DNA of 64,000 bases from Sipunculus nudus (Eukaryota > Annelida > Sipuncula > Golfingiida > Sipunculidae). Position numbers and translations under genes: made by a program. The stretch's first letter is position 1; each line of letters begins with the position of its first letter. The notes under the pieces were generated by a model. That model saw only the letters and a program-made list of their open reading frames with translations. It was not told the DNA's origin and made no database searches. This document shows, piece by piece, positions 33,501-57,591 of this stretch. The stretch spans positions 58,126,250-58,190,249 of the forward strand of contig CM049318.1 of assembly GCA_026874595.1 (NCBI GenBank), given 5' to 3'.

Positions 33501-36500
33501 AACAGGGGGGGACGGAAAATCGAACAGATCGAATTCCGGCCGCCCCAGGCGAGCGAAAACACTCCGAACATCCGGGAGCGGAAGGAGCGGCAGGGAAGGA
33601 GGAGACTCCCGATGACGGGAAAGTGCGTCCGCGAGGATGTTCGACACGCCCGGAAGATGGGATGCCTGAACCAATGCCCGGAGAGAGATGCATAGATTGA
33701 ATAAAAGGTAAGTCTCCTGCATGAGCGAGGGAGACCGAGTACCGCCCTGCCTGTTGATATATGCCACCACCGTGGTATTGTCGGTCCGGACGAGAATGTG
33801 ACGGCCGATCAAGCGGGGAGACCAGTGGGAGATCGCGCGACGGAGGGCACGCAGTTCTAGGATATTGATATGTAGCAGACGTTCCGACGGGGACCATATC
33901 CCCGAAGCGCGAAGATCGGCAAGATGGGCCCCCCAACCGAGGAGAGACGCATTGGTATAGATGGTGCAATCGACATCCATGGAAAAAGGAACGCCGCGCA
34001 GATAAAAGGAAAGGTCCATCCAGGGACGAAGGGACCGCCAGGTGAGCCGAAACGGGAGGATCGTAGGACGAACCGAGGTTAAACAGAAGGCCGTGACGGC
34101 GCAGGATAGACTGAATCGGACGGAGGTACAGTCGGACGAACGGGATAAAGGACGCGGCCCAGTTGAGAGCACCGTGGAGAAGGCCGCTGTGCGCGAGTCT
34201 ACATGGCGCCGCGTGAGAAAAGAACGAATTAGTCGGCGGAGCTTGAGAGCAAAATCTCGTGGGAGCGACGCCGTGCAGGACGCAAAATCGAGCGTGACAC
34301 CCAGAAATTGGAGGGACTGGGTGGGAGTGAGAAGAGATTTCTCTGCATTGACCAGGAAGCCAAGGTTTCGAAGTAAGTAGAGAACCTGGGAGCGATGCGA
34401 CAGTAAGAGGGAACGATCAACGGCATGGACCAGCCAATCGTCCAGATAAGGGAGCACAGAAATGCCCTGTGAACGGAGATAACTCGTGACCGTGTGAACC
34501 AGCATGGTAAAAATCCAGGGGGCCACGTTGATCCCGAACGGAAGGGCCCGGAACTGAAAAACGCGGTTCTGATACGCGAAGCAAAGAAACGGTTTAGAAG
34601 AGGGATGGATTGGAACGTGAAAATAGGCATCCGTAAGGTCTATTTTGAACGCCCAATCCATCGGCTGAACAATGCGGAGCACAACATGGATATTGAACAT
34701 CCGAAACGGGGGCGGACGGATGAACGAATTGAGGCGCTTCAGGTCTATGATCGGGTGCCAGCGGCCGTGCGGTTTGGGAACAAGAAAAAGGCGAGAGTAA
34801 AACCCCACGGTGGAAGGGAAAACATCTAAAATTGCCCGTTTGTCTTACATAGATTGAATGGCCTCCTCCAAAGCGAGGTGTTTTGCCGGATCTGACGGAG
34901 GCGGAGTGAAGAACAGGTGCATGGTGACGGGAGGTGCGTGCAAAAACGTAAGATGGAACCCGAACTTTATGGTGCTGAGAATTAACCGCTGTGAGGTGAT
35001 ACCCGCCCACGGGGGAAAATGGGCGCTGAGATGAGCGCCGACTGGAGCGAGAGAGTCATTTCCTGGTCTTACCTCATTTGGAGGATCGACCAGGAAAAGG
35101 CTGAGAACGACTGGAACGTCATGAAGGACGAGAAAACGTAGCAGACGGGCGACGCGGCCAAGCGGAAGCCGCAACCAGAGGCCGAGGGCGGGGAACGCGG
35201 AAGGATGGCGGAGGCACAATAGAGGTCGAGTGGAGGCGGGCCTGATGATCCTAGTGCTCCAAGGCGCGGTCAAAAAGAGGCCGTAATTGGCCGCCAAACA
35301 GCAGGGAACCGGTTAAAGGCTGAGAATAAAGCTCGGTTAACTCCGCCTGAGTAAGCTCCGGCTTTAAGTGCTTTGATGACTGAATGAAAGCCGTGCGGCG
35401 TAACAAGATGCAATTTTCAACCAGGCACCAAACGACCTGATTCAATTCAGTGCAAGTATGGGCAGAAGCCTGCCATATGTCGTTGAGAGTGAGCGGGTCT
35501 GGAGAAACGGCGAGCAAGCTAGTGACAGCCTGCAAGTCGTTAACCATACCGGCCGCTTGCCGGCCGAGCCCCTCCAGATCCGACAGGTGACGATTGGAAA
35601 ACTGGACAGAGGACGGAAATAAAGACTTACCGTCCGCAAACGGCTGTTCCAGGCCGGACTCGAGTCGCATCAGAGCTGACGGAATATCCGGGTGATCAGG
35701 AAAAGGGAGCAAGCGATCGAAACAGGTAGCCCGGTACCCACGTGAATTCCAGAGGGTACCGGGGGACCAAGGTTTATCCGAACCCGGCGGAAGCGGGGCC
35801 CCAGTAGTAGAAGAGCGAGACCCCGAGACCACCGCGTGGTGCTCACGTAAGAGATCCCCCGTGTGGTCTGTAAATTCCATACACACGGCGGGCGCGGCGG
35901 AGGGCGATTGAAGGGCGGCAGGATTCAAATAAGAACCGGCCGCCGAAGCCGAGGAAGTCCGAGGTTGTAACCTACGGAACTTTGGACCACTAGGGTTATC
36001 CTCCTGTGTGGAGGTAGCCACTAGGTCCAGAAGCGCAGATTTGCGCATATGCCAAACCTGGCGTTGCAGCGCGATCTCTGACCACTGGTCTGGTGCCAGG
36101 GCGGGATCGGCTGACTGAGAAGTCGGGGACCCTGGAGAACCCCGGGTAGGGGGAGCCAGAGAGACCCGCTGAGCCAGAACCACCGGAGGCTGGAAACAGG
36201 AAGCAGGGGAACAAGCAGCAGCAGGAACCATCCTGGAAGGCACAGGAACCGGAGCTGCAGGCAGCACAGCAGACGGTAACTGAAAGAAAGAGCCGGCCGG
36301 CCGGGGAGGAAGGGCAGCAGACGGAGGAACTGGAGGCGAAGCCGGCTGCCCCGAAACGGAGGCAGGAGGGACCGACGCACTTACCTGCACACCAGGAAGG
36401 TAGGGCGATCCAGCGGGACGGCTCCAGCCGGCCCCGGAGATAATGAAGGAATCCGGGAGGAGCCGGGGGCGATGAGAACGGCCGGGGAGAAAGTACCGGG

Positions 36501-39500
36501 GGTGCCGGCGAGGGCGCCGGGCGGACTGATTCGGGTCTAGACGAATCGTCGAGATCCTACATAAGTGATGAGCAAAACCGGGACAATTTATGTAATATGG
36601 AATAGGCAGATGTGCTGTCAGAACGGGAGGCCGCAGGAACGGGGGAAGACTTCTGTTTCCGTGAATGAGAAAGCAATGATTTAACTGTCGAAACCACTGG
36701 AGAGGTGACAGGACCGGCGGGAACGGACGGTGAACGCAGCACGGCCGTGTTGCGTTCAACCAGGGTAGGCTCCCCCCCTCCCCCCCGGAGACAACCACAG
36801 GGCCAGACAATGGAATATTGGAGGGGGAACCCCCAATTACCGGGGAATGAGCCCAATCCTGAAACAAGGCCCACTTGTCAGTGGACCACGTCTGGCAATG
36901 AAAACAAGGATCAGCCGGACCACGGCAGGAGTCATTGTTGGTGCGGCAACAAAGACAAGTGGGGTGGGAGTCCCAACCCGGGATTACCGTGCCACAAGAG
37001 ACACAATACTTGGGGTTCTCCATGGCGGGCAAGGGAAAAAAGTAAGTACAACTAACAATCAGTTGGCAAACTCAAAACGACAAACCCAACAGTGGACGAA
37101 TCTCGCAGCGCGGGATCATACGTCCATCATGGCGTACGCCAGAAGAAAATGTGATTATGGGTAACGGAAGTGTGACCTAGATACACGGGAACAAGGCGGG
37201 ATGGGCGATAATAGGCCAAATAAGGGAAAATTTTCGGTTGGCTTACTCTGGCGTATAAACTTTAACAGAGAAAATTCTCATTAATACAGAAACAGCTCAC
37301 AATTATGTTTACATAATAAAACCTAATATTTTATCACATTTGAATATGAGAATTAAATTCCTGAAATTTTATTCTTTAAAAAAATCAAAATTGTCCAAGT
37401 CTCATCAAAAAGAATTTATTTAACATTAAAATAATAAGATTCATCTTGTTTATTAGTCCTGTGTATTGAAGGGGTGGGTGGGGGGAGACGTCTCCGTTGT
37501 TACTGCTTGTTGCTGAAAAAAATGTTAATTTTAAGATTCATCTAGTTCATAGTACAGGTCTGTCAACAGAATGGGGTGGGGGGGGGGGGGGGTGCCAGAG
37601 CAAAAGGCTCCCTGTGATATGGTATTAACTGCAGACAGCCTGATCAAGCTCAACTCAGTGAAGAGAGGGCTTGCCCTAGTGGTGGGATTGCATAACAGTA
37701 TGCCAACAGCCTGGGGAACATAGAGAGCTGCACTGAATGACACCAAAGTGGACTGCTTGACAATGTAAGGGAATACAACAAGAGCCTCCAAAAAAATTCA
37801 ATAACTAGCCTAATTTTGCAGCTTTTATTTTCAAATTTCAGATTTCAACAGATTAAATCCTTATGTGCACATGCTGTGAAAATTAAATCCACAGGACTTA
37901 CAGGAAAAAAAAAGTGCTGCACTGAATGACCAAGTCATCAAAGTGGACTGCTTGACAATGTAAGGGAATACAACAAGAGCCTCCAAAAAAAATTCAATAA
38001 CTAGCCTAATTTTGCAGCTTTTATTTTCAAATTTCAGATTTCAACAGATTAAATCCTTATGTGCACATGCTGTGAAAATTAAATCCACAAGACTTACAGG
38101 AAAAAAAACGTGCCATGGCCAAAGTTGGGCAAAATTTAAGGTACAAATTTTATATTTTTGCCAATATTTAAAAAAATTTAAACTATTTTTGGTATACAAT
38201 TAAATTTTGATTAATTAAAGTTGTAATACTGAAAAAAAAAGTCCCTACCTTTCACACTTTTGGTCTTAAGTGACCAAATATCTTTCCTGATTTTTTTACA
38301 AAGTCCATTATGTTTGGGCCCATAACTTTTTTAAATTAAATAATACTGACTTAATTTCCGGCATGTACATAGGAACTATATAGAGGAATATTTATGGTAA
38401 ATATGAGGAAAACCAGATGAGTTGTTTTGATATTAGGCAGTCCTGAAGTGTGAAAATTGATTTCTAATAAAAAATTGACCCAATTTTCAGCATGGTAGGA
38501 GATTTTGGGGACATCTAACTGAAATCAGATTTGTAGGTTGAATGGTGTTGAAACGTGCCAGTCTTACGGACGGACATCCAGATGGACGGACAGACGGATG
38601 GACGACGGACAATGGACCATGACTATAGCTCAGATGACTTATAGTCAGCTGAGCTAAAAATATCCCTTTGTCTGGGGATACAATTAATCAAAATGGAAAA
38701 TTCAGTAGAGAATTATGGAATGCTGGCTCTGGGGCAAAGATGCCAAAAACTTGCAACCTGATAATCAACTTCAGTTGCCAAAGCCGTTACAAATTCCCTG
38801 ACTTCCCTAGTTATTAAAGAATTCCCTGACTTTTAATGAAATTTTCTGACTTTTCCCTGACCTTGAAACATGTTTTTACTGACTTTTCCCCTTACTGCTG
38901 GCAACCCTGCTCATTATTTCCATTCATTTCCATTCCTGTGTTTGTGTGTATTTGTTCACAACAGAATTCACAACCGTGAACAGAATTTCATGAAATTATC
39001 AGGGTGTTTCAGGAATAGGCCAAGGAAGAATCAATTAGATTTTGGTGGGGATGCACCCAATGATCTAGGTTCAGGAAATTCAAGGAATATTCACAAATGT
39101 ATAGTCACGCATGAATGAACCTGGGAAAACGGGCCTTTTAGGTGAATGTTAACACAGGTTGGGGGGAACCTCTGCAGAAATGAACCTGGGAGTGTGGGCA
39201 AAAAGGGAATGCAACAAGTGACCCATGGGTCATGACGCTCAGCTGCCAAGCATGACCTGTGACATCATGGACTGAGATTCACAACTTCCAGTCAAATTTT
39301 GAAGAACCAATTTGCCAACTTGTTGAAAATTTTCTATGACAACAGAAATATATATCACCTATGTCTGGTTAAAACACAGTGAATTAATGGTCTGAGGAAA
39401 AGGCATGATTGTTAAGCTATCAGGAACTACTGTGGTTGGCTTCATATTCGCGAGGCTGAAATTTCGCGATTTTTTCATTTTTAATGTTTTGCGAGGGTCT

Positions 39501-42500: not shown

Positions 42501-45500
42501 ATTAATTGCTTAGGCAAAAAAAAATTAATTTTATGCTTCTCAGGCACTTTTTTGGGAAAATGATGTGGGCAGGCGGCTTTTTAGTTTTATTCCCCTCAAA
42601 ATATCATAAAATATTGTTATTTCTCAAGCACTGGCACAGAAATGACAACCAATGGTTAAAATGTAAGAAAATAAACGATCTATATGTTGAATTAGTCAAA
42701 AGTTTGAAGAATCCTTGAAATATGTGACATTTTTATTTCTTTGTACATGTTATATTAACATACAAACCAGATTAAAAAGGACTATGAGGGTCAAATCTCG
42801 GGGGGAATCCTGGAACACATGGGCCATGACGTTGGTCATGAGATGGGGGATTTCCCATCGAAAAACATGATGGTCATGCCTCGTTAAACAAGACCTGAGA
42901 CCATTTAATTAAGAAAACAAGGGACCCATGGGTCACTGTGCTCAGCTGAAGTTGACCTTGAAGGTAAAAATCTAAAATAATATCAAATGGAGATAAAGTC
43001 CAAGAGGAAAAGGTAATACAGGCCACGGCTGGTTAACATGATTGGTTTGTATTGATGTGTAAGAAATTGTTGCAAATAATATTTTGTGATCAAAACATAC
43101 ATTTCCTAAGGTTAAAATTGAAGCAGGTGACCAGTTTGTGACAAGTTTCAGACCTGAATAGCTTTAATCAATCCACATACAGCATATGAAAGTTATTTCA
43201 ACAGTGCTTATAGAATTAATTGAATAATTAATATATATTTAATGATAAAGGAGACATGATGGACAGACAGAGCTGATTATTTTATGTTCCATTCACCTGA
43301 AGCAAGAATATGTTTTAATTAAATTTTAATTTTTTTTCTTATCCAATTATCTTTTAAGTTAAATATATTTTACACATTTGCAATAAAAACTGATGTCCCA
43401 GTGCACAGGTGCAAAGGAATCAATGGCAGCAGAGAGTGTGTGTGTGTGGGGGGGGGGGGGGGCGCAGTGGCAGGGGGAGGTAGCATTTACATCACTTCTG
43501 CATATATACATACAGGGCAAACAAAGTCTGATCTCCTATTCTGCTGAGGTAGGAAAATAATGAACAAATGTTTGTATTAGATCCTCATTATTTTATCACA
43601 TCAATTTTTTTAATGTTTAGTTTATATTTCTATACATTTCAAATATAACATATATATCTGAATCTAAAAGTTGATTTATAATTCTAAATTGCATCATCAT
43701 TAATCTCAATCTTGTCACATCATGCATTCAAATGTGTATATTTATTTTTTTACCACAAAAATATATCTTTTTAATTTACAAAACAATAAATATCTAAAAA
43801 TAATATTTGGTTCAGATTTCACAATTTTAAACTGTGCCTTTATTTATCCACAATTTGCTTTATATTTTATAAATTTATGCATACTGCTGGGTCTTATTTT
43901 ATTTGAATTGGTTAAAATCATTTAAATAAAATTGATTTCTTTAAAAATGCTACATTAACCCAACATGGCATCTTCCAGATTACTCCTTGAATTACTTTTT
44001 TCAAGGAAAGTTTGTATATTGGAGTGGAAACAGCATTACAAGTAACTAATTCAGTGCAATTAATAACAATTACTGCATAACAATTACTGGTGTGTAGGGC
44101 TGGTGGCTGGGGGGGGGGGGGATGGTATGAGAATTACTGTACACCTGTCACAGCAGGGCATCTCCCCCAGTGACTGTAATAAAAACTGGCATAGCTGACT
44201 TCCAGTGACCAGGAGTGCATATGGATAAACCAAGTAACTACAAAAGAGCCTAAATGAAAAATTCAATAACTAGCCTAATTTTCAAGCTTTTATTTTCAAA
44301 TTTCAGATTTAAACAAATTAAATACTTATGTTTACATGCTGTGAAAATTAATTCAGCAGGACTCACAGGAAAAAAAGTGCCATGGTCAAAGATGGGCAAA
44401 ATTTAAGGTACTGATTTTATTTTTTTGCTAATAACTTAAAAAATTTACAAAATTTGGATCTAATTTTGGGTATACAATTGAATCTTAATTAAACAAAGTT
44501 ATATACTTGGAAAAACAATCTCTAGCTTAAAAAATTTTCATGTTTAGTGAGTAAATATTTTTTCTGATTTTTTACAAAGTGCATTATGTCCAGGCTCATA
44601 ACTTCAAGAAATTACATTCAACGAACTTAATTTCTGGCATGTATATAGGAAATATATCAGAGAATACTTATGGTAAATATTAAGGAAAACAGTTTGGTGG
44701 TTTTAATACAAGGCAATCCTGAAGTGTGATAATAGGATTTTTATTGAAATTTAAGGTTTTCCCTTAATATCTTGAAGGAATGAAGTTGCAGTGGCCCTAT
44801 TTTTGGTATGGTAGGAGATCTTGGGGACATCTAACAGTATGCCAAATTTTGGATTGGTAGGTCTAACAGTTTCAAAACATGCCAGTTTAATGGACAGACA
44901 GACAGATGGACAAAGGAACAGCCGACGGACAAAGGACAATGACTATAGCTCAGATGACTTATAGTCAACTGAGCTAAAAAATCGAAATTTTTAAAAATAA
45001 AATATAATCTTTGTTGATTTTTCTTATTAAATTTTAATTGCAAAGAAAGTATATTGGAAGTTTGTCAAAACATGATCTCCACCGATGGGCCGCATTGGCA
45101 GCCATGTTTATTCTCACCGAACAGTCAAGGGTCACGAAGCATGACAGTGAGAGCACACAAATATAATCTCTTTATGGGACGAAATTTTACATTTGAAGAC
45201 AATTACACAAAAAGTAGACCAATTCTAAGTGTTTACACAAATATTGGTATGTAGTTTTTTATGGAAAATGAGGGTATTAACACATGGTTAGCTATGAACA
45301 CTGCTGCTAAAGAAAGTTAGTTTTTTTTTATTAGTGATCAACTATGTTACCAGAACATCACCTGTCACTTGGGCAAATAAAAATGTTTGACAATGTAGGT
45401 TTAAAGCAATGTGGGCGGTGCCTGAGAAACATATATGTTTATTTGGCCTTACAAAGAATTACCAAAAAATAAATTCCCAGTGCAATTTACATCCTGACAT

Positions 45501-48500
45501 TATCTGTCTGGTGTGGTGTATATCCTGATATTACCTGTCTAGTGTGGTGTACATCCTGATATTACCTGTCTAGTTTGGTGTTCATCCTGATACTACCTGT
45601 CTCTTGTGGTGTACTTCCTGATGTTACCTGTCTCTTGTGGTGTACATCCTGATACTACCTGCCTAGTGCGGTGTACATCCTGATATTACTAGTCTAGTGT
45701 GCTGTACATCCTGATATTATTTGTCTAGTGTGGTGTGCATTCTATTACCTGCCTAGTGTGGTGAACATCCTGATGTTACCTGTGTAGTGTGCTGTACATC
45801 CTGATGTTACCTGTGTAGTGTGGTTTACATCCTGATATTACCTGTCTAGAATGGTGTACATCCTGATATACTGTCTTGTGTAGTGTACAACCGGAGTTTA
45901 CCCTTCCAGTGTGGTGTACGTGTTGAGTGTACCGGTCTAGTGTGGTGCACATCCTGATATTACCTGTCTTGTGTGGTGTACATCCTGATATTACCTGTCT
46001 TGTGTAGTGTACAACCGGAGTTTACCCTTCCAGTGTGGTGTACATGTTGAGTGTACCGGTCTAGTGTGCTGTACATCCTGGTATTACCTGTCTAGAATGG
46101 TGCACATCCTGATATTACCTGTCTTGTGTGGTGTACAACCGGAGTTTACCCCCCCAGTGTGGTGTACGTGTTGAGTGTACCAGTCTAGTGTGGTACACAT
46201 CCTGATATTACTTGTCTAGTGTGCTGTACATCCTGAGTTTACCCTTCGAGTGTGGTGTACGTGTTGAGTGTACCGGTCTAGTGTGCTGTACATCCTGGTA
46301 TTACCTGTCTAGAATGGTGTACATCCTGATATTACCTGTCTTGTGTAGTGTACAACCGGAGTTTACCCTTCCAGTGTGGTGTATGTGTTTAGTTTACCTG
46401 TGTAGTGTGGTTTACATCCTGATATTACCTGTCGAGAATGGTGTACATCCTGATATACTGTCTTGTGTGGTGTACATCCTGAGTTTACCCTCCCAGTGTG
46501 GTGTACGTGTTGAGTGTACCGGTCTAGTGTGCTGTACATCCTGGTATTACCTGTCTAGAATGGTGCACATCCTGATATTACCTGTCTTGTGTGGTGTACA
46601 ACTGGAGTTTACCCTCCCAGTGTGGTGTACGTGTTGAGTGTACCGGTCTAGTGTGGTACACATCCTGATATTACTTGTCTAGTGTGCTGTACATCCTGAG
46701 TTTACCCTTCGAGTGTGGTGTACGTGTTGAGTGTACCGGTCTAGTGTGCTGTACATCCTGGTATTACCTGTCTAGTGTGGTGCACATATTAAGTTTACCA
46801 TTCAAGTGTGGTGTACATATTGAGTTAACCTGTCGAGTGTGGTGTACATATTAAGTCTACCTGTCAAGTGTGGTGTACATATTGAGTTTACCTGTCTAGT
46901 GTGGTGCACATATAAAGTCTATTTAAGTGTGGTGTACATATTGAGTTTACCTGTCCAGTGTGGTGTACATATTAAGTTTACCTTCAAGTGTGGTGTACAT
47001 ATTAAGTTTACCTGTCTAGTGTGGTGCTCATATTTAGTTTACCTGTCAAGTGTGGTGTAAATATTGAGTTAACCTGTTGAGTGTGGTGTACATATTAAGT
47101 TTACCTGTCAAGTGTGGTGTACATATTGAGTTAACCTGTCAAGTGTGGTGTACATATTAAGTTTACCTGTCAAGTGTGGTGTATATATTGAGTTTACCTG
47201 TCTATTGTGGTGCACATATTAAGTTTACCATTCAAGTGTGGTGTACATATTGAGTTTACCTGCCTAGTGTGGTGTACATATTAAATTTATCTGTCAAGTG
47301 TGGTGTACATATTGAGTTTACCTGTCTAGTGTGGTGTACATACTGAGTTTACTTGTCTAGTGTGGTGTACCAATTGAGGTTACCTGTCTAGTGTGTTGAA
47401 AATCCTGATGTTACCTGTGTAGTGTGCTGTACTTCCTGATGTTACATGTGTAGTGTGGTTTACATCCTGATATAACCTGTCTTGTGTGGTGTACAACCTG
47501 AGTTTACCTGTCTTGTGTGGTGTACATCCTGAGTTTACCCTCCCAGTGTGGTGTACATGTTGAGTTTACCGGTCTAGTGTGTTGAAAATCCTGATGTTAC
47601 CTGTGTAGTGTGCTGTACATCCTGATATTACTTGTCTAGTGTGCTGTACATCCTGATATTACCTGTCTAGTATGGTGTACATCGTGATATTACCTGTCTA
47701 GTGTGGTGCACATATTAAGTTTACCATTCAAGTGTTGTGTACATATTGAGTTTACCTGTCCAGTGTGGTGAACATATTAAGTTTACCTGTCAAGTGTGGT
47801 GTACATATTGAGTTTACCTGTCTAGTGTGTTGATAATCCTGATATTACCTGTCTAGTGTGCTGTACATCCTGATATTTTGTCTAGTGTGGTGTACATCCT
47901 GATATTACCTGTCTAGTATGGTGTACATCCTGAAAATACCTGTCTAGTGTGGTGTGCATCCTGAGTTTACCTGTCTAGTGTGGAGTACATCCTGATATTA
48001 CCTGTCTAGTGTGGTGTACATACTGTACTGATATTACTTGTCTAGTGTGGTGTACATCCTGAGTTTACCTGTCTAGTGTGGTGTACATAAGGTAAGGCAG
48101 CTGGAGCTGACAGAACGTGTCCATTTCTCTGCTGATACAGTCCTTCATGTCAGCGCTGGTCAATTTGAGTTCAGTCTCTCTCCCACTAAGGGTATCCTGT
48201 ATGTACTTCACAATCTAATGGAAATCATACAACCAAAATTATGGTTATTTATAATGTAATGCAAAATATTTGCTTACTTGAGACACAGAATGTTTAATGA
48301 CTCCATCTAATGATAATAGCAGACTCAAAATTACTGACGGAGGTAGGTAATGAAATGGAAAATGTTCTGTGTGACCATGTAAATGAAATATATTGATTTC
48401 AAATTAGGACAAACAGCCCATACTATATAAATAACTGTTCCACAATATCACTGCTTCTTTTTTTCAAAGAATAAACACTTGGTTGCTTGCTGCTCTTCTA

Positions 48501-51500
48501 TCAATCTACTGAAGAAATTAAAAGTGTTCAAATGCAAAATTCTCATTCAATAAGGTATCACTGAAAATGTATAAACTTTGTGTCTTTTTTTATGTCCAAC
48601 ATTTAAAAAAAATGAGATACATTATGGTATCCTTACAAGTTGGCAAAATTTCATGAATTTTTGTCTTAACCAATAAATAGCTTTTTAAATTCAGACTTAT
48701 GTTTTTTACCTTGTCATAGAAAGCTGCCTTTTTTTAAATGAATACAACACCATGATAAAGATGAAGCAGGGTACATCAGAAGATATGGGGAAATACAAAT
48801 GCTGCTTTCTTTTAAACAACAGAGAACCTAAGCTACTGTTCATCTCAAACTAATTTGACTGGCCCATTACCAGTTCTCTTGTAGTTAACTTAGTTCCTGA
48901 TAGATGGCACTGTAATAACCTCTCAGTGAAAGAATGTTTAATTTCAAGGATTAACTGTCAATTGTTACATTCTGAATAAAAAAACACACAAAAACACATG
49001 AACTGGAATGAACACATACCCACCTGGCAGAGTAAAAAAATACTTTATTTTGAATACAAAACACCTGAAGTGCTAGTTAATTACCTCAAGTTGCTGACCT
49101 CGTAAGCGGCATTCTGCACTGACATTTTGCTTGATGAGTACACGAATCATGTTCTGTTTCATATCCTGCAAAGAGAAGAAACATTTCTATACATCAAAGT
49201 TTCAGAATTCAGCCAAGATTCGGATGCAGAACTGGCACGTGGAGTGCAGATAAAAATCAGTAATGACTAAATAAAAAAATAAATAAGGTGAGAATCCTTA
49301 TGCCTGGACCAGTATGCAGAATGCGCAACCGGCAAAATGAATCATAACATGTAGCATTATTTGCTGGTTCAACATGACATGTCTGAATGACATGTAGAAA
49401 ACATGCATGTAGCCATGCTGGTAGAAAACGAAATCTCTCAACATACATTCCGCATGCCATATACTGTACATAAAGAATCTTAGCTTTCTGAATGATATAT
49501 ATATATATACACACAATTACTCTAACACAAGTATAACCTCAGGTGGCTTATTCTTATTACTATCAAATATTCCCTTTGTGGCATTTTGGCGATCTGACTT
49601 TTAGCCAGCCTGAGGCAAGTGTTCTAGCTGTCAGAGTGCCTTTACATTCTCAAACAAGGAAGGCACTTTGAGGGTGCAAATATTTTCGTAAATTTTGACA
49701 ATGCCTGATGGCCTACAAGTACAGCATATTGGCTTATCCCTCTGCATGTTTGTTGAATTTCTGACTGCATGAATACAAGCATGGCTCGCACAGGTTAAGC
49801 GATGGCAGTGAATTTGTAAGCCATACAGGAAATGAAGGAGTTTAAAATCGGGATGTGAGTTCCCATGTATTCTTTTGTGTTAATTCATCATTCGTAGCCT
49901 AATGTTAACATTATTGGCTGTTTACAATGATATAAATGCAACATGATGGAAGACCACTGCGATGCTTTCTTCCATATATCAAACTTGTATCACAACTCAA
50001 GTTAGGCTTACCAGCCAAATATAAACACTTACAAAGTCGAGTATTCAAGGCTAACATTCCATATGTCCAGCATCAAATGACATAATCACTTTCACTTTGA
50101 TAAATAAAGAGCATATATAGACTTAGTGGTAAGAACCGAATACAAAATCATGTTTAATATATGAAAAGCAAAAAATGACTGATGACCAATCATGAATTGA
50201 TTATTTTTTGTACCTTCCATATTATTGCAGTATCTGCTGTATAGATGACTTTCAGTTAGCTGTGCTAAAAAAATATTATGGTCAAACTGGTCAAAAGTGA
50301 TACAGAAACTTCTGTGTTCTGAAGTATTTTTATGGTTAAAAATGGTCCAAATATTATTAGGAAGGAAAATGATTGACACGGGAGTCAGATTTTTTTTTAG
50401 CAACGACTCCAGATCACCACCTGTCACTTCGGCAATAAAAACATTTGATGCAGGGGTTTAAAGTGATGTGGTCAGTACGTGAGAAACAAATGATTAATTT
50501 TTTTTTGCCCAATGGAAGCACAAATGACAGGTGTGACCACTACTGGTTCAGCTGATGTATATTGTTATCATCAGATCAGCTCAGAGGATGTCAGGGTTGG
50601 GAGAGAAGGCATAATATTGACATGCTAGTAGATACAGTTAAATCTCCCCTTATGACCACCTCAAAGTAACGACCACTTGTCCTAGTCCCAGTTTCTGTTT
50701 TCTGTTTATCTGAGGCCTCCCTTAGATGACCACCTCGAAAATGCACCACTTTATCTAGGTTCCACTAGTGGTTGTAATTTTGAGGTTTTACTGTATAATC
50801 ACTGTACCCACGGCAAGTTTTGTGAAGCCCTGAATCTTCTGGTACTTGACATACAGATCTTTCTTCTCCTGTGTCAGCTGACAATTCTTCTCCTTCAGAT
50901 TCTCAGCTTCCTGCATCAACGTCCTCACTGCCGTCTTCAGTATCATAACCTCCACTTCAGCGTCAAACAATTTCCTATCAACAATATACAGTAGAATGTT
51001 GTTTATCCGACCACTTTGGGGGACAAGGTTTCAGATATAGGTCATTCAGATAAATGCATGATCATTCGGATAAACAACCATTTGAATAAATGATTTTGCA
51101 TGAGATTGCATCAAGCACAATGCTTGCAGACCTGCTGCCAGATAATGGACGTTATCGGATACTGAGAGATCCAACTTTATTAAGCTGACATATAATAAAT
51201 ATTGGCAGCAATATTTGTGTTACACTTTCCATCAGTTTGTGAATATAAGATCTATACTATTACCATGATCATTGGTTGGCTTTTTGATAAGCTGCTGACA
51301 GTTCAGCAGTTTACACAATTGTTGAATTAGATCCAATTTTTTAAACCAAATAACTCAGATGACTTAAAGTCAGCTGAGCTAAAAATTGGTAATTCCTTTT
51401 CATTTGCATATTAGTAGTCACAATTTAGGTTTGGGATGGAAATTCAGGCAATCCACAGAACACAGATTACATGCATTATCTAGTTTACAAAATTAATCAG

Positions 51501-54500
51501 ATCTTTATTTCAACATGTCACCATTTAGTTTGATTATTTTGTTTCTCATGATAGTTCAAACATGGTATTATCTGAGACTAGTGGTGGGAGTCGGTTCTTT
51601 TTTCATAATCGATCATCGGTTTGGGCAAATCGATCGATGATCGATTATTATTTGGTTCAGACAAATATAAAGAAATGTGAAATTATCTTTGAAACTGTAC
51701 TCTCTTAACCCAGCCCGCATGTCTAAGTAATTCTACCTGAAGAAAAGAAGATTTTGCCTTTTTTATATTTTCCTTTTATCACTAAGATATGGTATTCAAA
51801 ATTTTATTTTAATTAATTATAGTTATCAAGAATTAAACACAGTCCAGGACATCTACTTGCTGGCCCTCTTGAATACTCCCGCGTATCATTTTAAATTCAC
51901 CACCAGGACTTTCATTTTATAACAATTATAATGACTGCAGACATGCATATTGGTTTCACAGGCCTGCCAGAAAAATTACAGGCCCATATAATTTTTGCTA
52001 AAAATTAAAAAAATAAATAATTGAAAGCAAAAAATATAATTACTCATGCGGCAGATGAACCTGACATCAGTTGAGGAGATTATTTCTAAGAGAATCTTGC
52101 AAAATTGGCATAGACCTTGAGCATTATGGAGCATTTTAACGCCATCAGCCCATATTTGCAATGAACATCTCGTTAGAAAACTCTCCGCTAATTCTCCAAC
52201 TCCCTGCCAGTTCACAGAGGTTTAATAAAACCTCCGTTCTCTCATCTACCGTGTCACCTACCGTCTCATCTACCGAGGTTATTTGGGAACACAGACTCAT
52301 TATATGAAGTATTGTAAAAAATGGAAGAGTACTTTTTGCCTATAACTTAAAGGCATTCTGGTAAAAACAGTCATGAGTATGATGTAATCAATAGTTGCCT
52401 TTCGTAATCGAGCACTTGAACGTGGCTGCAAACCAACTGACTTTAGAAAAACCTAGATGCTCGGCCCACCACTATCTGAGACAGTTATATTTTATTTGAC
52501 ATGTCATAAACTGAACATCAGTCATAAAATTGACAGTGTACCTGAGGATCATACTACCTTTAAAAGTTATGATATTCTCATTGGTCTAATTACACCAGGT
52601 CACCCTACACTTGTTAGTCTGATTCTTGGCCCTGTGCCAGAAAATGTGTTATCAGACCAACCAGAGCAGGTGTTGCATGTTTAAAATATTACGGAGCTGG
52701 ATGCATAATGAGATAACAAGCTCTCATTGGTGTGATAACAATTCCTTGCTCTGTGCACACCCTGGTGGTCGAACCCAGAAAATCTTGCTATACAAAGCAG
52801 CGGTTACAGGAGAGGAGACCTGGGATGACTGCAATGTATAACTGTATACACTATGTGTGGAGCGATGCTTCACATGATGTTTATGAGACTGAGTGTCTGT
52901 TCTTACCTGGCCAATGAAAGTGCCCCTGGGTTAGCTTTCATGTTGTTACGCAGATAATGATGAACTTCTTCGACAGTTTGTGAGAGCTGCTTGTTCCCTT
53001 TCCATGCATTGTTTTTAGCTTTTTGAGTCTCAAAAAATGTCCTCACATCTCGCACTTGGGCATCCTGAAAAATGTATTGTTATCACATTGTGCCAGTGAG
53101 GTGATACAGTAAAATTTTGCCAGATTGCCAGACCATCCCGCAATGATGACCACCGCCTCTAAGACGGCCACTTTTCTTGGTCCAAGACTAATATAAATCA
53201 TCATAAAACCTCTCACAATCATGACCACTCCACTAACATGACCACTTTGGCTGGTCCCGAGGTGGCTGTGTTAGTTAGATTTAACTGTATTTATATTAAG
53301 GCCTGCACTAATACTAATGAGTTCAAACTGGAAGTAAATACTACAGACCAGTACCTCCTGATCATTAATTATTACTGTCACACAGTGACATGAATTTAAT
53401 TAAGTAAAAGAGGTAACAGTTGGGTTTATGGTCTGATATCACTCACTGAGTCTCATCTAAATTTATAATTTTTTTCTTGGTTTATGGTTCTGTTCATTAT
53501 TGAAGATTTTCTTTGGCTCCCAGGGGAGCATACACCCTAACACAAACCTTCATAGAGCAACAGAGTCATCCATTGCCTGCATGACCAGTGACCATTCACC
53601 ATTAAGGGAGAGGGCTTTGGCCAGGAGTCTTAGCAAGGAAGGCAGTCTCAACTGGATTAAAACCCAAAACCTTATGGTCATAAGTCTAGTGGCCTTACCA
53701 AAACTCTAAACACACTCCCTGTTATTGGTTAATAAGTGATGTTAAAAATTAAAACACTCTACACTCATTTACATACTGTTTATGTATATATGAAAATAAT
53801 ACCTGTACATAACATAATTTATGTTAGTAACTAACAAGAAATTTACACACATTAAAAGATAGATACAGACAATTAAAATGGAATAAATAACATGTGAATG
53901 ATATGACTACTTGATCTTAAAGGTTCTCTAAAATACAAAATAAAATACATACCTGTAGGCACTGATGAACAGTCTGGAGAGTTGTAGGAGGAGAGGAAAC
54001 ATCCACAAGTTCACCACTGTTCTCATATCGGAACCTGCAATGTGGAAGCTATCTCGCTATATCTATTTTTCTTTTATACAGAAAACTTGTGCAAAATGTC
54101 TTACCTATTTCTGAAACAACAACTAAATAAACATAAGGTTCCCAGCATTTCCCCAAAAATATACTCCTGCGTCCCCCTCCCCCTCCCACATCCCAGCCCC
54201 CCACTCAAGTTTTTCCTGTCAAATTTAAAGACCTTTTTTTTCCAAGTCTGACTTGCCTTGTGAATTGTACCATTTTGACTACGCAACACTGAGAGGCTCA
54301 TATCTTTGTATATTACCAATAGGCCTCACTTTTTCCTGGGAACATAGGGTTCCCAGCATTTCCCCAAAAATATACTCCTGCGTCCCCCCCCCCTCCCCAG
54401 CCCCCCACTCAAGTTTTTCCTGTCAAATTAAAAGACCTTTTTTTTCCAAGTCTGACTTGCCTTGTGAATTGTACCATTTTGACTACGCAACACTGAGAGG

Positions 54501-57500
54501 CTCATATCTTTGTAAATTACCAATAGGCTTAACTTTTTTTCTGCGGCAACGACAAACATACCACTTTTTTAGTTTAAAGTTTACTTGTGTTTTTCTGAGA
54601 ATCTCTGTCTCTTGTTGGGGTATAGCTGAAATTCTCCACATCTTATTTGTGTTTACCTGAGATTCTCCATGTCTTGTATGTGTTTACTGTTTACCTGAAA
54701 TTCTCCACGTCTTGTTTGTGTTTACCTGAGATTCTCCACATTCTGCTTGTGTTTACCTGAGATTCTCAATGTCTTGTTTGTGTATACCTGAGATTCTCCA
54801 CAATTTGTTTGTGTTTACCTGAGATTCTCCACCTTCTGTTTGTGTTTACCTGAGATTCTCCACCTTCTGTTTGTGTATACCTGAGATTCTCCATGTCTTG
54901 TTTGTGTTTACCTGAGATTCTCCATGTCTTGTTTGTGTATACCTGAGATTCTCCACAATTTGTTTGTGTTTATCTGAGATTCTCCACCTTCTGTTTGTGT
55001 ATACCTGAGATTCTCCATGTCTCGTTCGTGTATACCTGTCAGGTTCAATTTTTCAGCCCGCGCAGGGCCCTAATACCTGAGATTCTCCACAATTTGTTTG
55101 TGTTTACCTGAGATTCTCCACATCTTGCTTGATATCTAGTCGTTTAGTCTTCTCAGCTAGCTGTATCACAGAGTCCAGTGCATTGTTAGTTAGGTACATC
55201 AAAATGAGGCTGGGCGGGTGATCACGCAGAACCTTGCTCAGTTTACTCCATACTTTCTCTCGCTGCTGCTCCCTGAAAAACAAAAGTGCCATCCCTGTAT
55301 TATACATCAGTGCTAAAACAATACATTAATACTGCACGATACAACACATATTTTGATACTTTGCTCACAATGATATACATAGGGTGGTACTTTGCTTACG
55401 ATATAATCCAATATCGCGATACTTTGCTCATGATATAATATATTGTTATGTAGCTTGTGAGATCCGATACATTATCACAATACCTTACAATAAATAGTGT
55501 GTTACTTTGCTGACAATATGATACATATTGCAACACTTTGCTCACAAAATCAAAGTCAGCTGATCTTAAAAGTTTAAATGTGACTTGAAGCCCATGATTC
55601 AACCTTGCACAGTATTTTAGTATAATTAAGATATCACTTCATATGATACTTTGTGGATATACACACAAAACAGATGAGTGATTTGCACTTCAACCCACTG
55701 TGAGCAAGGTCACAATTTCATCTCAGTGACCACATCATACCTGTAGAGTGGTAAGAATGGTAGTATGACATAATAATAATGGAAGTGTGTTATCACAATA
55801 ATGGAAGTATGACATCAAAATAATAGAAGCATGACATCATAATAACTGAAGTATGGCATCATAATAATCAAAGTATAACATCATAATAACAAAGTATGAT
55901 ATCATAGCAATGGAAGTATGACAGAATAATGGAAGCATGACATCTTAACAATTGAAGTATGACATAATAATGAAAGTAAGATATCATAGCAATGCAAGTA
56001 TGACCTCATAATAATGGAAGTATTACATCACAGCAATGGAAGTATGACATCATTACAATGGAAATTTGACATCATAATAATGGAAGAATGACATCATAAT
56101 CAAGGAAAAACAACATCATAATAATGGGGAACAACATCATAAAATTGGAATAATGAATAAGAAAGAATTACATTCACCTGATGTGTAGGCTTGGGATATC
56201 AGTTTTCTATATCAAGATAATGTTGTAAAATTTATTGAGATATATTGTGATATCATAATACCAGTATTTGGTGTGGAAACTCTAGTGCTTTTTATAATAT
56301 CACAAATGTAAGTATTTTCTGCCATGAGATACATAAAGATATCCCAATATCAGAAAATCTAGCATTATCATCAGATCACAGCTGTAAGTAATGTTTCTAG
56401 GACTACCTACAAGTTGGCGAATCCCCTGAGTTTTTTTCAGAAAACCTGATGGTCACTTCGTTAAACAGCATAATTTTGAACATTTTAATATACCAATGTC
56501 TATTTAATTTTATGATTATTTCTACATAGAATTAAAGGTGATTCATTAAAAAAAATGTTATCCTTGAAACTAAATGATTTTCCAAATACAGAAAGACTCT
56601 AGCGTTCAGGTAATAATCCTATAGGGCATGTTTGTACATCCAAAAGTAAATGATTTTTCAAACACAGAAAGACTAGTGACTCACGTTCAGGTAATATTCC
56701 TAAAAGGGCATGTTAGTGTATCCAAAACTGTGGAAAAAAATGTGTGCATCATGATATCAGAATAACAGGGAAGTTGACAACATGATTATAGCAGCTGTCA
56801 GATATTATGATAATCCCTAATATTAGTTATCATCCCAACCCTAATGATGCAGTAATACATATTCGTTATAAACAAAAATCTAATTGGCCTGGAGTCAAAC
56901 CCTGTATAGAAGGCAAATAATTGATTTATTTATGAAGATTCAAGCAATCTTAAATATGCAGATGATCAGCAATGCAGCCAACTCTAGTGGCAAAAAGTGT
57001 TTGTTGTCCATATCTTCTAATAGTAGACCATAGGTAAACTACTACTTGTTGGGTAAGATACTCTAATTTTGGGGCAGTGCAAGATACAGCTCTAGGCACT
57101 GAGAGAGTTAGATGCTCTGTGAGAGCTTTTTATTTAAAATTAAAACATGCACCAGTCAATCTGAATGTCTGTAAACTTTCAAATCACAAGGTTTAAACTA
57201 TTACAGGACTGGGTCCCATGGTCTAGGGGTACAGCATAGGGCTCAAAGCTGGGAGACCATGAGTTCAAATATCAGCCAAGCAGTTGAGATTTTTCATGGT
57301 TGGCCCCTATCCAGGGTGAGCCCTTGCTAAATGAGGAGATGCCCAAACGTCATGTTTCACTCACATATGAGTGTACCTTTTGGGGGTTCCTCAGAGTTAT
57401 AGATCCAGGACCACAGAGCCTCGTTGATGTCATGTGTTTCCCCCAGTCACAAAGTGTGACACCAAACTGGTGAACATAATACAAAGTTTTATAAAAAAAA

Positions 57501-57591
57501 CTCACACAGGAGCAGAAGATGACCCAAATTCTCCCTTTAAGAGCTGGTCCAGAAATAACTGGATTTTCTCACATGTATCTCTGACGTCTGT
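27463..57591 (-). CDS. HAUS5: HAUS5, augmin complex subunit 5 (3' part, 11 exons)
   Basis: Eleven exons, read right to left, join in phase to an open frame of about 470 codons ending in TGA at 27463-27465. Exons: 57506-57591, 55108-55272, 53953-54034, 52907-53064, 50812-50974, 49085-49165, 48069-48214, 42252-42372, 30391-30535, 29012-29144 and 27463-27592. All introns are GT-AG. The product is mostly helical with a heptad-like stretch in the 50.8-kb exon. From memory it matches vertebrate HAUS5 in order: a DHPPSLIL segment, IRVLIKQN, FPLYKAPECL, and the C-terminal WWDQPA followed by QQW..NW. HAUS5 is a core subunit of augmin, which docks gamma-tubulin ring complexes on spindle microtubules for branching nucleation. 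The human protein is ~630 residues, so about the first 160-180 residues and the promoter lie beyond the right edge. Assignment rests on remembered motifs, not a database search. Confidence 0.78.
29012..29144 (-). CDS. HAUS5: HAUS5 exon, acceptor ambiguous
   Basis: The donor is GCCTG|gtgagt. The acceptor at 29144 (gatattacag|GT) gives R-G-LCEEVKRHDKRH. A second acceptor at 29222 (ggtgtgcag|TC) is also phase-compatible and would add 26 in-frame residues containing VMPDQLGHETLGKENI. Neither has a strong pyrimidine tract, and both could be used alternatively. The exon ends KDFVQA, with TG left over to start the WW of the last exon. Confidence 0.7.
30391..30535 (-). CDS. HAUS5: HAUS5 exon
   Basis: The acceptor is attttggtag and the donor is GTCAGAG|gtaacg. 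The exon is 145 nt (48 codons + 1). It encodes APECLFEQVLKLKNETEE and ends KKSAVDYVR. It lies just downstream, in gene sense, of the DIRS-bearing repeat. Confidence 0.78.
30570..30810 (-). repeat. Dispersed repeat, pair with 52.57-52.77 kb
   Basis: In reverse complement this shares ttggtctgattcttggccct, ggtgttatcagacca and atgtttaaaat with 52570-52770. Both copies are in HAUS5 introns in opposite orientation. Confidence 0.7.
31668..31842. repeat. DIRS left inverted terminal repeat
   Basis: It begins ggttttgttagtaaact and is the inverse of 37145-37323 over ~175 bp, with few mismatches in the inner ~130 bp. A 29-bp terminal extension (31639-31667, a C run followed by attccctccc) lies outside the repeat and is copied in the internal complementary region. 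Confidence 0.9.
31883..31993. repeat. DIRS internal complementary region
   Basis: Bases 31883-31946 are the reverse complement of the extreme left end. Bases 31947-31993 match the reverse complement of the extreme right end with one difference (attacg against attatg). In DIRS1 models this region templates joining of the two termini in the circular intermediate. Confidence 0.9.
32053..32934 (-). CDS. DIRS ORF3, tyrosine recombinase catalytic domain
   Basis: The open frame of ~293 codons has no ATG at its start. The frame is open from about 32988, and real homology begins near 32934 (LGHDRVLHHPLVLDFLKG). Catalytic residues of the phage-integrase family are present, numbered from 32934: R75 in GRRSELHAL, H209-x-x-R212 in HDIRAL, and nucleophile Y245 in FTRFYLKDV. 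The enzyme would integrate the circular DNA copy by recombination. The matching N-terminal core-binding domain is in the ORF2 frame, one base off, so a -1 shift near 32935 would be needed for a full enzyme. Six glycines (154-159) come from a 19-base C run at 32459-32477 that is prone to length change. Confidence 0.87.
   Translation of the reverse strand: MPLGHDRVLHHPLVLDFLKGVHARASCPRYFAPSWRLDVVLRHLREPPYEPLRSAHLLHLSRKTVFLLALSSVGRRSELHALVADSKFMQIGADGSSATLHFPPDFYRKNQNFDDPPSAWHVPALPNGQYCYGATNCPVRVLRYYLKATQSLRGGGGGGRKKLFISTKVTTSNKEISPITISAWLKATIVAAYESASPSTLEQLHIKAHDIRALSTSLGHFSGISPNQLVKKVYWKSPSTFTRFYLKDVQLQAYGLYSLGPVIASGEVLLFSRPSSSSPSVPPPMSSAAPSQH
32688..35297 (-). pseudogene. DIRS ORF2, reverse transcriptase-RNase H (broken)
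   Basis: The frame from 35297 is interrupted by TAA at 34845-34847 and continues in frame to 32688. After the stop, a 706-residue stretch carries RT motifs KIDLTDAY (55-62), ALPFG (88-92) and catalytic YLDD (121-124). RNase H follows with TNAS (N286 where Asp is expected), ELRA, VRTDN (D343) and LADALSR (D394). Its tail (about residues 560-620) is the core-binding domain of the tyrosine recombinase. The piece before the stop holds the normal RT N-terminus (LSAHFPPW..IT, ending LALEEAIQSM). Family-like sequence appears in other frames near 34180-34050 and 33430-33260, suggesting paired compensating indels. No ATG precedes 34922, so initiation or frameshifting from ORF1 is unclear. Confidence 0.85.
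35251..37023 (-). CDS. DIRS ORF1, gag-like protein
   Basis: 590 residues from ATG at 37021-37023. The preceding in-frame codons are not ATG. The N-terminus has a zinc-binding-like cysteine cluster: C7-x2-C10, C23, C26, C33, C40-x2-C43, with D18 and H20 in between. This is followed by a proline/serine-rich middle (roughly residues 150-300) and a helical C-terminal part ending RPLFDRALEH. This matches the layout of DIRS-order ORF1 proteins, thought to act as the structural (gag) component, although the family is poorly conserved. The frame is intact. It overlaps the upstream extension of the RT frame by ~46 nt. Confidence 0.82.
   Translation of the reverse strand: MENPKYCVSCGTVIPGWDSHPTCLCCRTNNDSCRGPADPCFHCQTWSTDKWALFQDWAHSPVIGGSPSNIPLSGPVVVSGGEGGSLPWLNATRPCCVHRPFPPVLSPLQWFRQLNHCFLIHGNRSLPPFLRPPVLTAHLPIPYYINCPGFAHHLCRISTIRLDPNQSARRPRRHPRYFLPGRSHRPRLLPDSFIISGAGWSRPAGSPYLPGVQVSASVPPASVSGQPASPPVPPSAALPPRPAGSFFQLPSAVLPAAPVPVPSRMVPAAACSPASCFQPPVVLAQRVSLAPPTRGSPGSPTSQSADPALAPDQWSEIALQRQVWHMRKSALLDLVATSTQEDNPSGPKFRRLQPRTSSASAAGSYLNPAALQSPSAAPAVCMEFTDHTGDLLREHHAVVSGSRSSTTGAPLPPGSDKPWSPGTLWNSRGYRATCFDRLLPFPDHPDIPSALMRLESGLEQPFADGKSLFPSSVQFSNRHLSDLEGLGRQAAGMVNDLQAVTSLLAVSPDPLTLNDIWQASAHTCTELNQVVWCLVENCILLRRTAFIQSSKHLKPELTQAELTELYSQPLTGSLLFGGQLRPLFDRALEH
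37145..37323. repeat. DIRS right inverted terminal repeat
   Basis: Inverse partner of the left repeat, ending acataataaaa at the junction with the host repeat (acctaatattttatcac). It lies upstream of the gag-like gene and so probably carries the element's promoter. No specific promoter motif was identified. Confidence 0.88.
38935..39115 (-). repeat. Dispersed repeat, inverted third copy
   Basis: Inverse relative of 7560-7775 and 9655-9850: gtgtttgtgtgtatttgttc, aatttcatgaaatt, then caattagattttggtg. Confidence 0.6.
39218..42024 (+). mobile_element. Dispersed element copy with the same ends, divergent interior
   Basis: The left end is gacccatgggtcatgac with gctcagctg. The right end is gacggacaaagacccatc, then gtcagctgagctaaaaa. 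The interior contains several gaccttgacctttgacct motifs (41060-41760) and short palindromic pieces with ttcgcgaa (39440-39840). It may be a composite of more than one element. Confidence 0.45.
42252..42372 (-). CDS. HAUS5: HAUS5 exon
   Basis: The acceptor used is cactgtag|CACTCAG. An AG six bases further in would break the phase. The donor is TACAAG|gtgaat. The exon is 121 nt (1 + 40 codons). It encodes TQKAAIIDLSINKMVGS and ends AILEFPLYK, which joins APECLF of the next exon. The combined FPLYKAPECL recalls a vertebrate HAUS5 segment. The following intron is 11.7 kb and contains the DIRS element. Confidence 0.78.
42921..44981 (+). mobile_element. Dispersed element copy
   Basis: The left end is gggacccatgggtcactg with gctcagctga. 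The right end is gactatagctcagatgac, then gagctaaaaa, preceded by an ACAG/ACGG-rich tract. The right 750 bp is close to the 61-63 kb copies. G runs occur at ~43448 and ~44110. Confidence 0.6.
45489..48088. repeat. 31-bp minisatellite seeded at a HAUS5 splice donor (~84 copies)
   Basis: The + strand unit is ctgtctagtgtggtgtacat followed by cctgagtttac or cctgatattac (31 bp). It fills 2.6 kb of intron and ends exactly in the 48.1-kb HAUS5 exon. Subfamilies differ in the second half: cctgatatt, tattaagttt or tattgagttt, and ccggagttt with cgtgttgagtgta. These are arranged in blocks and higher-order groups. On the gene strand each unit reads GACAG|GTAAA or GACAG|GTAAT, i.e. a splice donor copy. 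Confidence 0.95.
48069..48214 (-). CDS. HAUS5: HAUS5 exon, donor at the edge of a 2.6-kb minisatellite
   Basis: The acceptor is tttccattag. Two donors are possible. CTAGACAG|gtaaac (exon end 48069, chosen) is near consensus and gives the same exon/intron geometry as the other splice-site minisatellite. CTTAT|gtacac (exon end 48087) is weaker. Both leave two bases and so keep the frame. They differ by six residues (MYTTLD). The exon encodes IVKYIQDTLSGRETELKL onward. The leftover AG (or AT) joins C of the next exon. Transcript data would settle the donor. Confidence 0.72.
49085..49165 (-). CDS. HAUS5: HAUS5 exon
   Basis: The acceptor is tctctttgcag and the donor is CTTGAG|gtaatt. The exon is 81 nt, 27 codons, phase 0 to 0. 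It encodes DMKQNMIRVLIKQNVSAECR and then LRGQQLE. The IRVLIKQN.SA.CRL block is one of the segments that recalls vertebrate HAUS5 (remembered as RLLIKGNSAS). Confidence 0.8.
50812..50974 (-). CDS. HAUS5: HAUS5 exon, coiled coil
   Basis: The acceptor is gttgatag and the donor is CTTGCC|gtgggt. The exon is 163 nt (1 + 54 codons). It encodes KLFDAEVEVMILKTAV and then RTLMQEAENLKEKN, a clear amphipathic heptad pattern expected for a HAUS coiled coil. The donor is a less common GTGGGT, but it is the only one that keeps phase with the 49.1-kb exon. Confidence 0.8.
52570..52770 (+). repeat. Dispersed repeat, pair with 30.6 kb
   Basis: Contains attggtctaattacacc, gattcttggccctgtgcc and atcagaccaaccagagcagg. 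It is inverse to the 30.6-kb copy. Confidence 0.7.
52907..53064 (-). CDS. HAUS5: HAUS5 exon
   Basis: The acceptor is catttttcag and the donor is GGCCAG|gtaaga. The exon is 158 nt (52 codons + 2). It begins DAQVRDVRTFFETQK and ends NPGALSLA. The trailing AG joins G of the next exon as arginine. The sequence is polar and helical, consistent with the coiled-coil body of an augmin subunit. Confidence 0.8.
53953..54034 (-). CDS. HAUS5: HAUS5 exon
   Basis: The acceptor is cacattgcag and the donor is CTACAG|gtatgt. The exon is 82 nt (1 + 27 codons). It encodes FRYENSGELVDVSSPPTTLQ and then TVHQCLQ. Its leading G completes the AGG arginine split with the 55.1-kb exon, and it ends in phase 0. Confidence 0.78.
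54137..54548. repeat. 211-bp direct tandem duplication
   Basis: Two near-identical copies begin ggttcccagcatttcccc at 54137 and 54348. Each contains a C-rich run and a T-rich run. The copies differ mainly in the length of the C-rich run. It is intronic in HAUS5. Confidence 0.9.
54586..55127. repeat. 31-bp minisatellite seeded at a second HAUS5 splice donor (~16 copies)
   Basis: The + strand unit is ctgagattctccacatcttg followed by tttgtgtttac (31 bp). It is more degenerate at the left end and interrupted by an unrelated ~40 bp at about 55036-55075. The rightmost unit is the real exon end (55108-55127). On the gene strand each unit reads AATCTCAG|GTAAAC. Confidence 0.93.
55108..55272 (-). CDS. 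HAUS5: HAUS5 exon, donor embedded in a 31-bp minisatellite
   Basis: The acceptor is gtttttcag and the donor is AATCTCAG|gtaaac. The exon is 165 nt (1 + 54 codons + 2). It encodes a helical segment with KVLRDHPPSLILMYL, which resembles the NHPP segment remembered from vertebrate HAUS5. The last 20 nt of this exon plus the first 11 nt of its intron are repeated many times downstream (54586-55127), so the junction sits at the edge of a tandem array. Confidence 0.8.
55762..56160. repeat. ~22-bp degenerate tandem repeat
   Basis: The unit is close to ataataatggaagtatgaca with tc, repeated about 18 times with frequent substitutions and small indels, inside the intron upstream of the 55.1-kb exon. 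It is unrelated to the 31-bp arrays. Confidence 0.85.
57208..57470 (+). mobile_element. Degenerate tRNA-derived SINE
   Basis: A-box-like tggtctaggggtacagc and B-box-like gagttcaaatatc about 40 nt apart, followed by a body with cacatatgagtgtacc. It lies just downstream, in gene sense, of the 57.5-kb HAUS5 exon. Confidence 0.45.
57506..57591 (-). CDS. HAUS5: HAUS5 exon (most 5' exon in window)
   Basis: The acceptor is tctctttccag and the donor is CCTGT|gtgagt. The exon is 86 nt, starts in phase 0 and leaves two bases (GT). It encodes 28 residues beginning TDVRDTCEKIQLFLDQLL. The leftover GT joins the G of the next exon to give valine. No upstream partner with compatible phase was found between 57.6 and 64 kb, so the preceding exon is probably off the window. 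Confidence 0.75.

Follow-up and report, generated by a model that had tools for sequence, protein, structure and literature searches.

Minisatellites lying across exon-intron boundaries have been described in amphioxus under the name of mirages, in Adh3, the globin genes BflGb6 and BflGb9, PGBD5 and TnC (PMC3087553, PMC3902484), with unit lengths given as 10-72 bp for Adh3 and 150-160 bp for the globins (PMC3087553). Internal tandem repeats of recent paralogues in human segmental duplications have units of about 30 bp on average in about four copies, half of them within coding sequence, and those at an exon-intron boundary may form novel introns (PMC2812944). In potato, one report describes a tandem duplication over an exon-intron boundary of the RdRp gene, by which the splice signals are duplicated (PMC4974935). 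Here we describe two arrays of this general kind in the cell-division gene HAUS5 of Sipunculus nudus, located in a stretch of 64,000 nucleotides (assembly GCA_026874595.1, contig CM049318.1, positions 58,126,250 to 58,190,249; hereafter the window, within which positions are numbered from 1), together with similar arrays found elsewhere in the same genome. We consider them to be exon-seeded 5' splice site minisatellites, formed by tandem duplication of the junction and subsequent expansion into the intron, and part of a wider population; we would put the probability of this reading at roughly 0.82.

Array 1 (45488..48088, minus strand) comprises 84 full units with the consensus ATGTACACCACACTAGACAG|GTAAACTCAGG, the bar marking the splice junction, and array 2 (54585..55131, minus strand) comprises 17 units with the consensus CAA(A/G)CAAGATGTGGAGAATCTCAG|GTAAACA. 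In both, the exon copy is numbered unit 0 and is included in the totals; unit 0 of array 1 (48088-48058) includes the final 20 exon nt, that of array 2 includes about 24 exon nt, and units 1-2 of array 2 are interrupted by unrelated sequence. Tandem Repeats Finder (TRF) reported 84.2 copies of period 31 at 45488-48088 (78% match) and 14.4 copies of period 31 at 54585-55038; in a unit-by-unit wraparound alignment, the length was exactly 31 bp in 77 of the 84 full units of array 1 and in 13 of the 17 units of array 2. Both arrays start within a HAUS5 coding exon, repeat the exon end together with the first bases of the intron, and spread intron-ward only. The consensus of array 1 is identical to the last 20 exon nucleotides at 20/20 positions, and that of array 2 matches the exon end over 24 nt, 22 of them identical. 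The preliminary description of this DNA, made from the letters alone, had proposed two such 31-bp minisatellites, each grown from a 5' splice junction of HAUS5 and extending only downstream into the intron, and all of this was borne out; the geometry of 20 exon and 11 intron nucleotides that it assigned to both is sharp for array 1, and array 2 is better described as 24 + 7.

Outside the nine-base donor that they share (CAGGTAAAC), the two units agree at only 3 of 22 positions (shuffle mean, 6.1); the arrays therefore arose in two separate events, as had been suggested, and a common origin of the two units is ruled out. GT is kept in 79/84 units of array 1 and 14/17 of array 2, the real donor counted, which leaves about 78 and about 13 extra GT-bearing copies. 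There are thus many extra donor copies, as had been supposed, but fewer that carry GT than the 84 and 16 first put forward. Both arrays finish 3-5 nt beyond a whole unit.

The identity of the gene rests on peptides joined in exon order: five exons match the Pfam family HAUS5 (PF14817, E=1.4e-20), and all six mapped in the window match the augmin chain 8at2_E (E=1.6e-10). The exon ending at the donor of array 1 occupies 48069..48214 (minus strand, open frame; AG|GTAAAC, with the G at 48068), and that ending at the donor of array 2 occupies 55108..55272 (minus strand, open frame; CAG|GTAAAC, with the G at 55107), the ends at 48069 and 55108 having been counted by hand. Arrays are thus present at the donors of two of the six exons; no exon following array 1 was found within the window.

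The whole genome (1,426,538,692 bases) was searched for three copies of a word at periods of about 18-48 bp, so that units outside this range escape the search; each word was controlled by itself in reversed letter order (the backwards word). Such triples gave 6421 matches for CAGGTAA versus 729 backwards, 402 versus 45 for CAGGTGAGT, 303 versus 133 for CAGGTAAGT and 252 versus 57 for AAGGTAAGT. The GT-destroyed word CAGATAA (4023 versus 1694) was dropped from the controls as unclean: a giant array at C1:12.30M (contigs are given as C numbers) dominates its matches, and units of CAGATAA and of CAGGTAA occur together in one array. Since a few large arrays inflate the match counts, those of CAGGTAA and AAGGTAAGT in particular, loci were counted where the lists allowed. 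For CAGGTGAGT, there are at least 24 array loci among the first 100 of the 402 matches (C1-C11), or 19 when the ATCATCTC family is reduced to one locus and a set of three similar arrays on C11 to another, versus 3 loci in the complete list of 45 matches of the backwards word. For CAGGTAAGT, there are at least 17 loci among the first 100 of the 303 matches (C1-C7), versus, for the backwards word, 4 in C1-C7 and at least 10 or 11 over the first 100 matches out of 133 (to C12). Taken together in matched contig ranges, the two donor 9-mers yield 41 loci and their backwards controls 7. The preliminary description had named, as a result that would refute it, junction-spanning arrays being no commoner than chance; as far as the comparison could be run, these counts speak in its favour, as does the neighbourhood of the arrays.

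Arrays of this sort recur at further genes of the animal. The donor-side edge was read at 44 arrays (5 for CAGGTAA, 20 for CAGGTGAGT, 4 for AAGGTAAGT and 15 for CAGGTAAGT). Outside this count are five further loci whose reading stopped short of the edge (L070, L078, L085, L104 and L107), the unfetched C11:39.46M, C11:39.53M and C4:24.48M, L088, which was merged with L079, and L087, an exon-less locus from the CAGATAA list. By eye, a plausible coding exon adjoins 24 of the 44 edges, 16 are without one, and four are unclear (L075, L076, L081 and L091); in L076, the first array of its unit begins 60 nt from the fetched end, with open frames there. In several cases the array lies some way past the exon donor, by 48 nt in L045, 97 nt in L074, 49 nt in L067 and 13 nt in L069. 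A mechanical test, which looked for a pyrimidine-rich acceptor, an open frame of 60-300 nt and an AGGTR donor near the edge, passes 21/44 edges, two of them among those called unclear, versus 104/500 control anchors in the window (Fisher p=2.3e-4); anchors on the opposite strand pass in 1/10 cases (p=0.036 versus the edges).

A set of 26 array-adjacent peptides, including an opposite-strand one from L026, was compared with Pfam, and seven of these also with PDB. Nine match at E <=0.05 and five of these at <=1e-3: Kunitz (L062, E=4.1e-20), thioredoxin (L103, E=1.1e-10) and LRR_8 (L058, E=7.2e-7), all three passing the Pfam cut-off, the ABC transporter domain ABC_membrane (L095, E=3.4e-5) and a permease (L105, E=4.7e-4). 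The L095 exon also matches ABCC2 in PDB (9e-9), and the similarity extends up to its last residue. The remaining four are PTB (L073, E=0.0057), UBC (L075, E=0.014), PH (L094, E=0.016) and PRMT5 (L077, E=0.024, in PDB only). The peptide of L027 bears a tentative resemblance to securin.

Exon-abutting arrays total 26, i.e. the 24 recognised by eye and the two of HAUS5; 22 of them, both HAUS5 arrays included, were measured for shape, L045, L069, L074 and L102 being omitted as displaced or as having a short match, and the unclear loci being omitted too. The period in the measured arrays is 21-48 bp (mean 38, within the search range of 18-48), and the exon part is 14-33 nt. A period of 31 bp occurs in none of the 20 measured arrays outside HAUS5, with one at 30, which rules out 31 bp as a general rule. 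For this reason the length shared by the two HAUS5 arrays is a coincidence within the gene and no sign of a mechanism, and the mechanism that the preliminary description had read from the common length and geometry is not upheld.

According to the reading that we favour, a short segment reaching from the end of a HAUS5 exon into the beginning of the following intron would first have been duplicated in tandem, and the ending of the arrays a few nucleotides past a whole unit would fit a duplication at microhomology. The duplicate may then have grown into the intron by slippage or unequal exchange, where the copies would be free to drift, with the exon copy presumably held by coding constraint as unit 0. 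The exon-edge donor would remain the one in use, and any later copy in either array would read into an immediate in-frame stop, so that mis-spliced HAUS5 messages would probably be degraded rather than translated. In favour of this reading are the identity of consensus and exon end, the conserved exon ends described below, which mark the exon as the ancestor and the array as the copy, and the recurrence of such arrays at other genes.

Several observations weigh against this reading. The use of the exon-borne donor is something that we infer from the sequence. Among nine full arrays, just five have their end close to a unit start. The match counts alone are weak, the ratio over the backwards word being 2.4 for the GT-destroyed CAGATAA and 2.3 for CAGGTAAGT. 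No exon was recognised at 16 of the 44 edges read, and the exon yield varies by word, from 11/15 for CAGGTAAGT and 11/20 for CAGGTGAGT to 1/4 for AAGGTAAGT and just 1/5 for CAGGTAA, the word of HAUS5 itself. The mechanical test passes four edges that appeared empty by eye (L064, L068, L097 and L099) and misses nine exons seen by eye. Donor-free control arrays were read at L108 and L109 alone, with a clear exon at neither. Among the nine family matches, Pfam's own cut-off is passed by three (Kunitz, thioredoxin and LRR), and with 26 peptides chance alone should give about one match at E 0.05; the PDB search was blank for L063 and L069, returned unrelated matches for L045 (E 0.97) and L105 (0.67), and gave a weak match to DNA-PKcs for L102 (E 0.61).

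The strongest alternative places the cause in the donor itself, with R-loops, nascent RNA bound by U1, or a polymerase that stalls where exon passes into intron seeding the tandem duplications, so that arrays would arise at donors far more often than at random sites. Besides the 41 versus 7 loci, it draws on an excess that seems to follow exons and not the word as such: of the 35 edges of the CAGGTGAGT and CAGGTAAGT sets, 22 adjoin exons, although by estimate the genome holds about 6,500 and 10,600 chance copies of the two words. Real donors carrying either word are expected to be fewer than such chance copies. Moreover, triples of the acceptor word TTTNCAGG show only a weak excess, with 2764 matches versus 1862 backwards (1.5-fold). 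The count to be expected if seeding were random is only roughly estimated, however, and some of the loci are related copies, as the reduction from 24 to 19 for CAGGTGAGT illustrates. The asymmetry between donors and acceptors can also be survivorship, because duplications spanning a donor are best tolerated and those spanning an acceptor change the start of the exon. The position of the donor within the unit is not clearly non-uniform (dispersion test, p 0.12 for 12 arrays and 0.012 for 22 arrays with short matches dropped), and it is not established that the donor occupies one set position there. We hold a donor-tied hot spot to be possible but doubtful, and advance only tentatively the view that donors far exceed acceptors as mutational seeds in this lineage, in which a process linked to transcription or splicing would repeatedly duplicate about 20-50 bp across the junction and the exon copy, kept constant by coding selection, would go on templating. 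If this were true, donor recognition at many genes would have to pick the exon-borne copy among tens of equals.

A functional role, in which the arrays serve as splicing decoys or poison sites tuning the expression of HAUS5, appears improbable. By simple match to the 9-mer CAGGTAAGT, 41 of the 83 extra copies of array 1 and 8 of the 16 of array 2 equal or exceed the score of the real donor, the sole higher score in array 2 belonging to an interrupted unit. The frame across both donors reads AG|G TAA (LDR-stop and NLR-stop), an in-frame stop directly after the donor, and each later donor would bring the same. On the other hand, GT in array 1 is no better kept than other well-conserved columns and is lost in 5/84 and 3/17 units of the two arrays, and the Adh3 and globin mirages of amphioxus are said to leave regular splicing undisturbed (PMC3087553).

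The reverse order of events, with minisatellites present first and exons recruiting a donor from them, would likewise make the exon end and the unit identical, and is very unlikely in view of the exons themselves. The array 2 exon by itself matches Pfam HAUS5 (E=2.4e-7) over residues 5-55 of 55, and its final residues, DIKQDVENLR, align with DVRADAEMLR of the plant protein AUGMIN5. Since the match reaches the last residue and is aligned with AUGMIN5 there, the end of this exon is old coding sequence, and the array was copied from it. The array 1 exon is weaker in this respect: by itself it matches HAUS5 over residues 2-48 of 49, i.e. up to the last-but-one residue, with E=0.021, which is below the Pfam cut-off; together with the preceding exon it reaches E=3.8e-6, and against 8at2_E it gives a non-significant second stretch of 4.5 bits. 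The ABCC2 similarity reaching the last exon residue in another gene argues in the same direction. Finally, although the genome is rich in tandem arrays and long arrays are prone to assembly error, chance juxtaposition or an assembly artefact has hardly any probability given the same pattern at other loci and the divergence of the array 1 units, which are not collapsed copies.

The other HAUS5 exons mapped in the window, all on the minus strand, are array-free: the upstream exon at 57506..57591 (donor GTGAGT), and those at 53953..54034 (donor GTATGT), 52907..53064 (donor GTAAGA) and 50816..50974, the 3' end of the last being approximate and its donor not pinned. The intron upstream of the array 2 exon contains a weak 31-bp minisatellite at 55335-55440 (3.4 copies) and a 22-bp minisatellite at 55752-56127 (17.4 copies), neither at a donor nor in contact with an exon. 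Just past the far end of array 2, a 204-bp unit occurs twice at 54130-54538 (94% match). Elsewhere in the window, 32053-37071 carries minus-strand long open reading frames of 718, 606 and 311 amino acids, which may belong to a DIRS-type retroelement, to judge by their appearance.

Some arrays of the genome-wide set have peculiarities of their own. The unit ATCATCTCTGATTATGCTTACAGGTGAGTG is arrayed at four places on different contigs (L066, L068, L085 and L086), and none of the three edges that were read, that of L086 on a second reading too, shows an exon; these arrays form a dispersed tandem family bearing a donor-like word. At L026 (G000:C1:1642965-1646043), what may be an opposite-strand exon, for which Pfam gave no match, has a 36-bp CAGGTAA array close to its acceptor and a 30-bp array on its other side. 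Arrays like that beside the PRMT5-like exon of L077 occur at two nearby places (C11:39.27-39.53M), perhaps through a joint duplication of exon and array. Matches of the COX1 type were found on small contigs, namely C60-C89 and C123. Of the two such loci read, L090 contains a bacterial gene cluster for a cbb3 oxidase, while L089 is an oxidase operon of bacterial appearance with a COX1-like frame of 578 amino acids; most of the other COX1-type matches have scores close to that of L089. No host mitochondrion was found at these two loci, and bacteria accompanying the host appear to be included in the assembly.

The loci are natural experiments in the choice of a 5' splice site, with up to about 80 donor copies behind one exon, where the splicing machinery faces one real exon end among many look-alikes. 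RNA-seq could ask whether the exon-adjacent position alone decides which donor is used. The few mirages of amphioxus thereby become something that can be surveyed across a genome, with a bearing on the ways in which new introns may arise from duplicated splice signals. In the literature searched, as far as it was accessible, no genome-wide survey of donor-spanning arrays was recognised, nor a report from molluscs.

Like the IFI6 minisatellite, which by the title of its report (cited in PMC2572611) repeats a splice donor, the HAUS5 arrays consist of donor copies. The evidence for IFI6 reportedly comes from transcripts, whereas the HAUS5 arrays are known here from genome sequence. The IFI6 unit is reportedly shorter than those of the HAUS5 arrays. 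With the human internal tandem repeats they share minisatellite units of about 30 bp at an exon-intron boundary, but HAUS5 has tens of copies within an existing intron (PMC2812944). As in potato RdRp, splice signals would have been duplicated by tandem duplication; unlike there, no new intron was seen in HAUS5, the copies lying inside one existing intron (PMC4974935). The closest likeness on record is to the amphioxus mirages: the HAUS5 units span the exon-intron boundary (20 and 24 nt of exon with 11 and 7 nt of intron), their 31 bp fall inside a reported range of lengths (10-72 bp in Adh3), and many units retain their splice signals (GT in 79/84 and 14/17). The globin and PGBD5 mirages include acceptor-side cases, whereas here donor words were sampled and the excess for the acceptor word is much weaker. 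Mirages were described from a few genes, whereas HAUS5 is joined by some two dozen further loci of one genome, with up to 84 units counted. The mirage kind itself is thus already known, and what is new are the genes involved and the genome-wide, donor-weighted sample.

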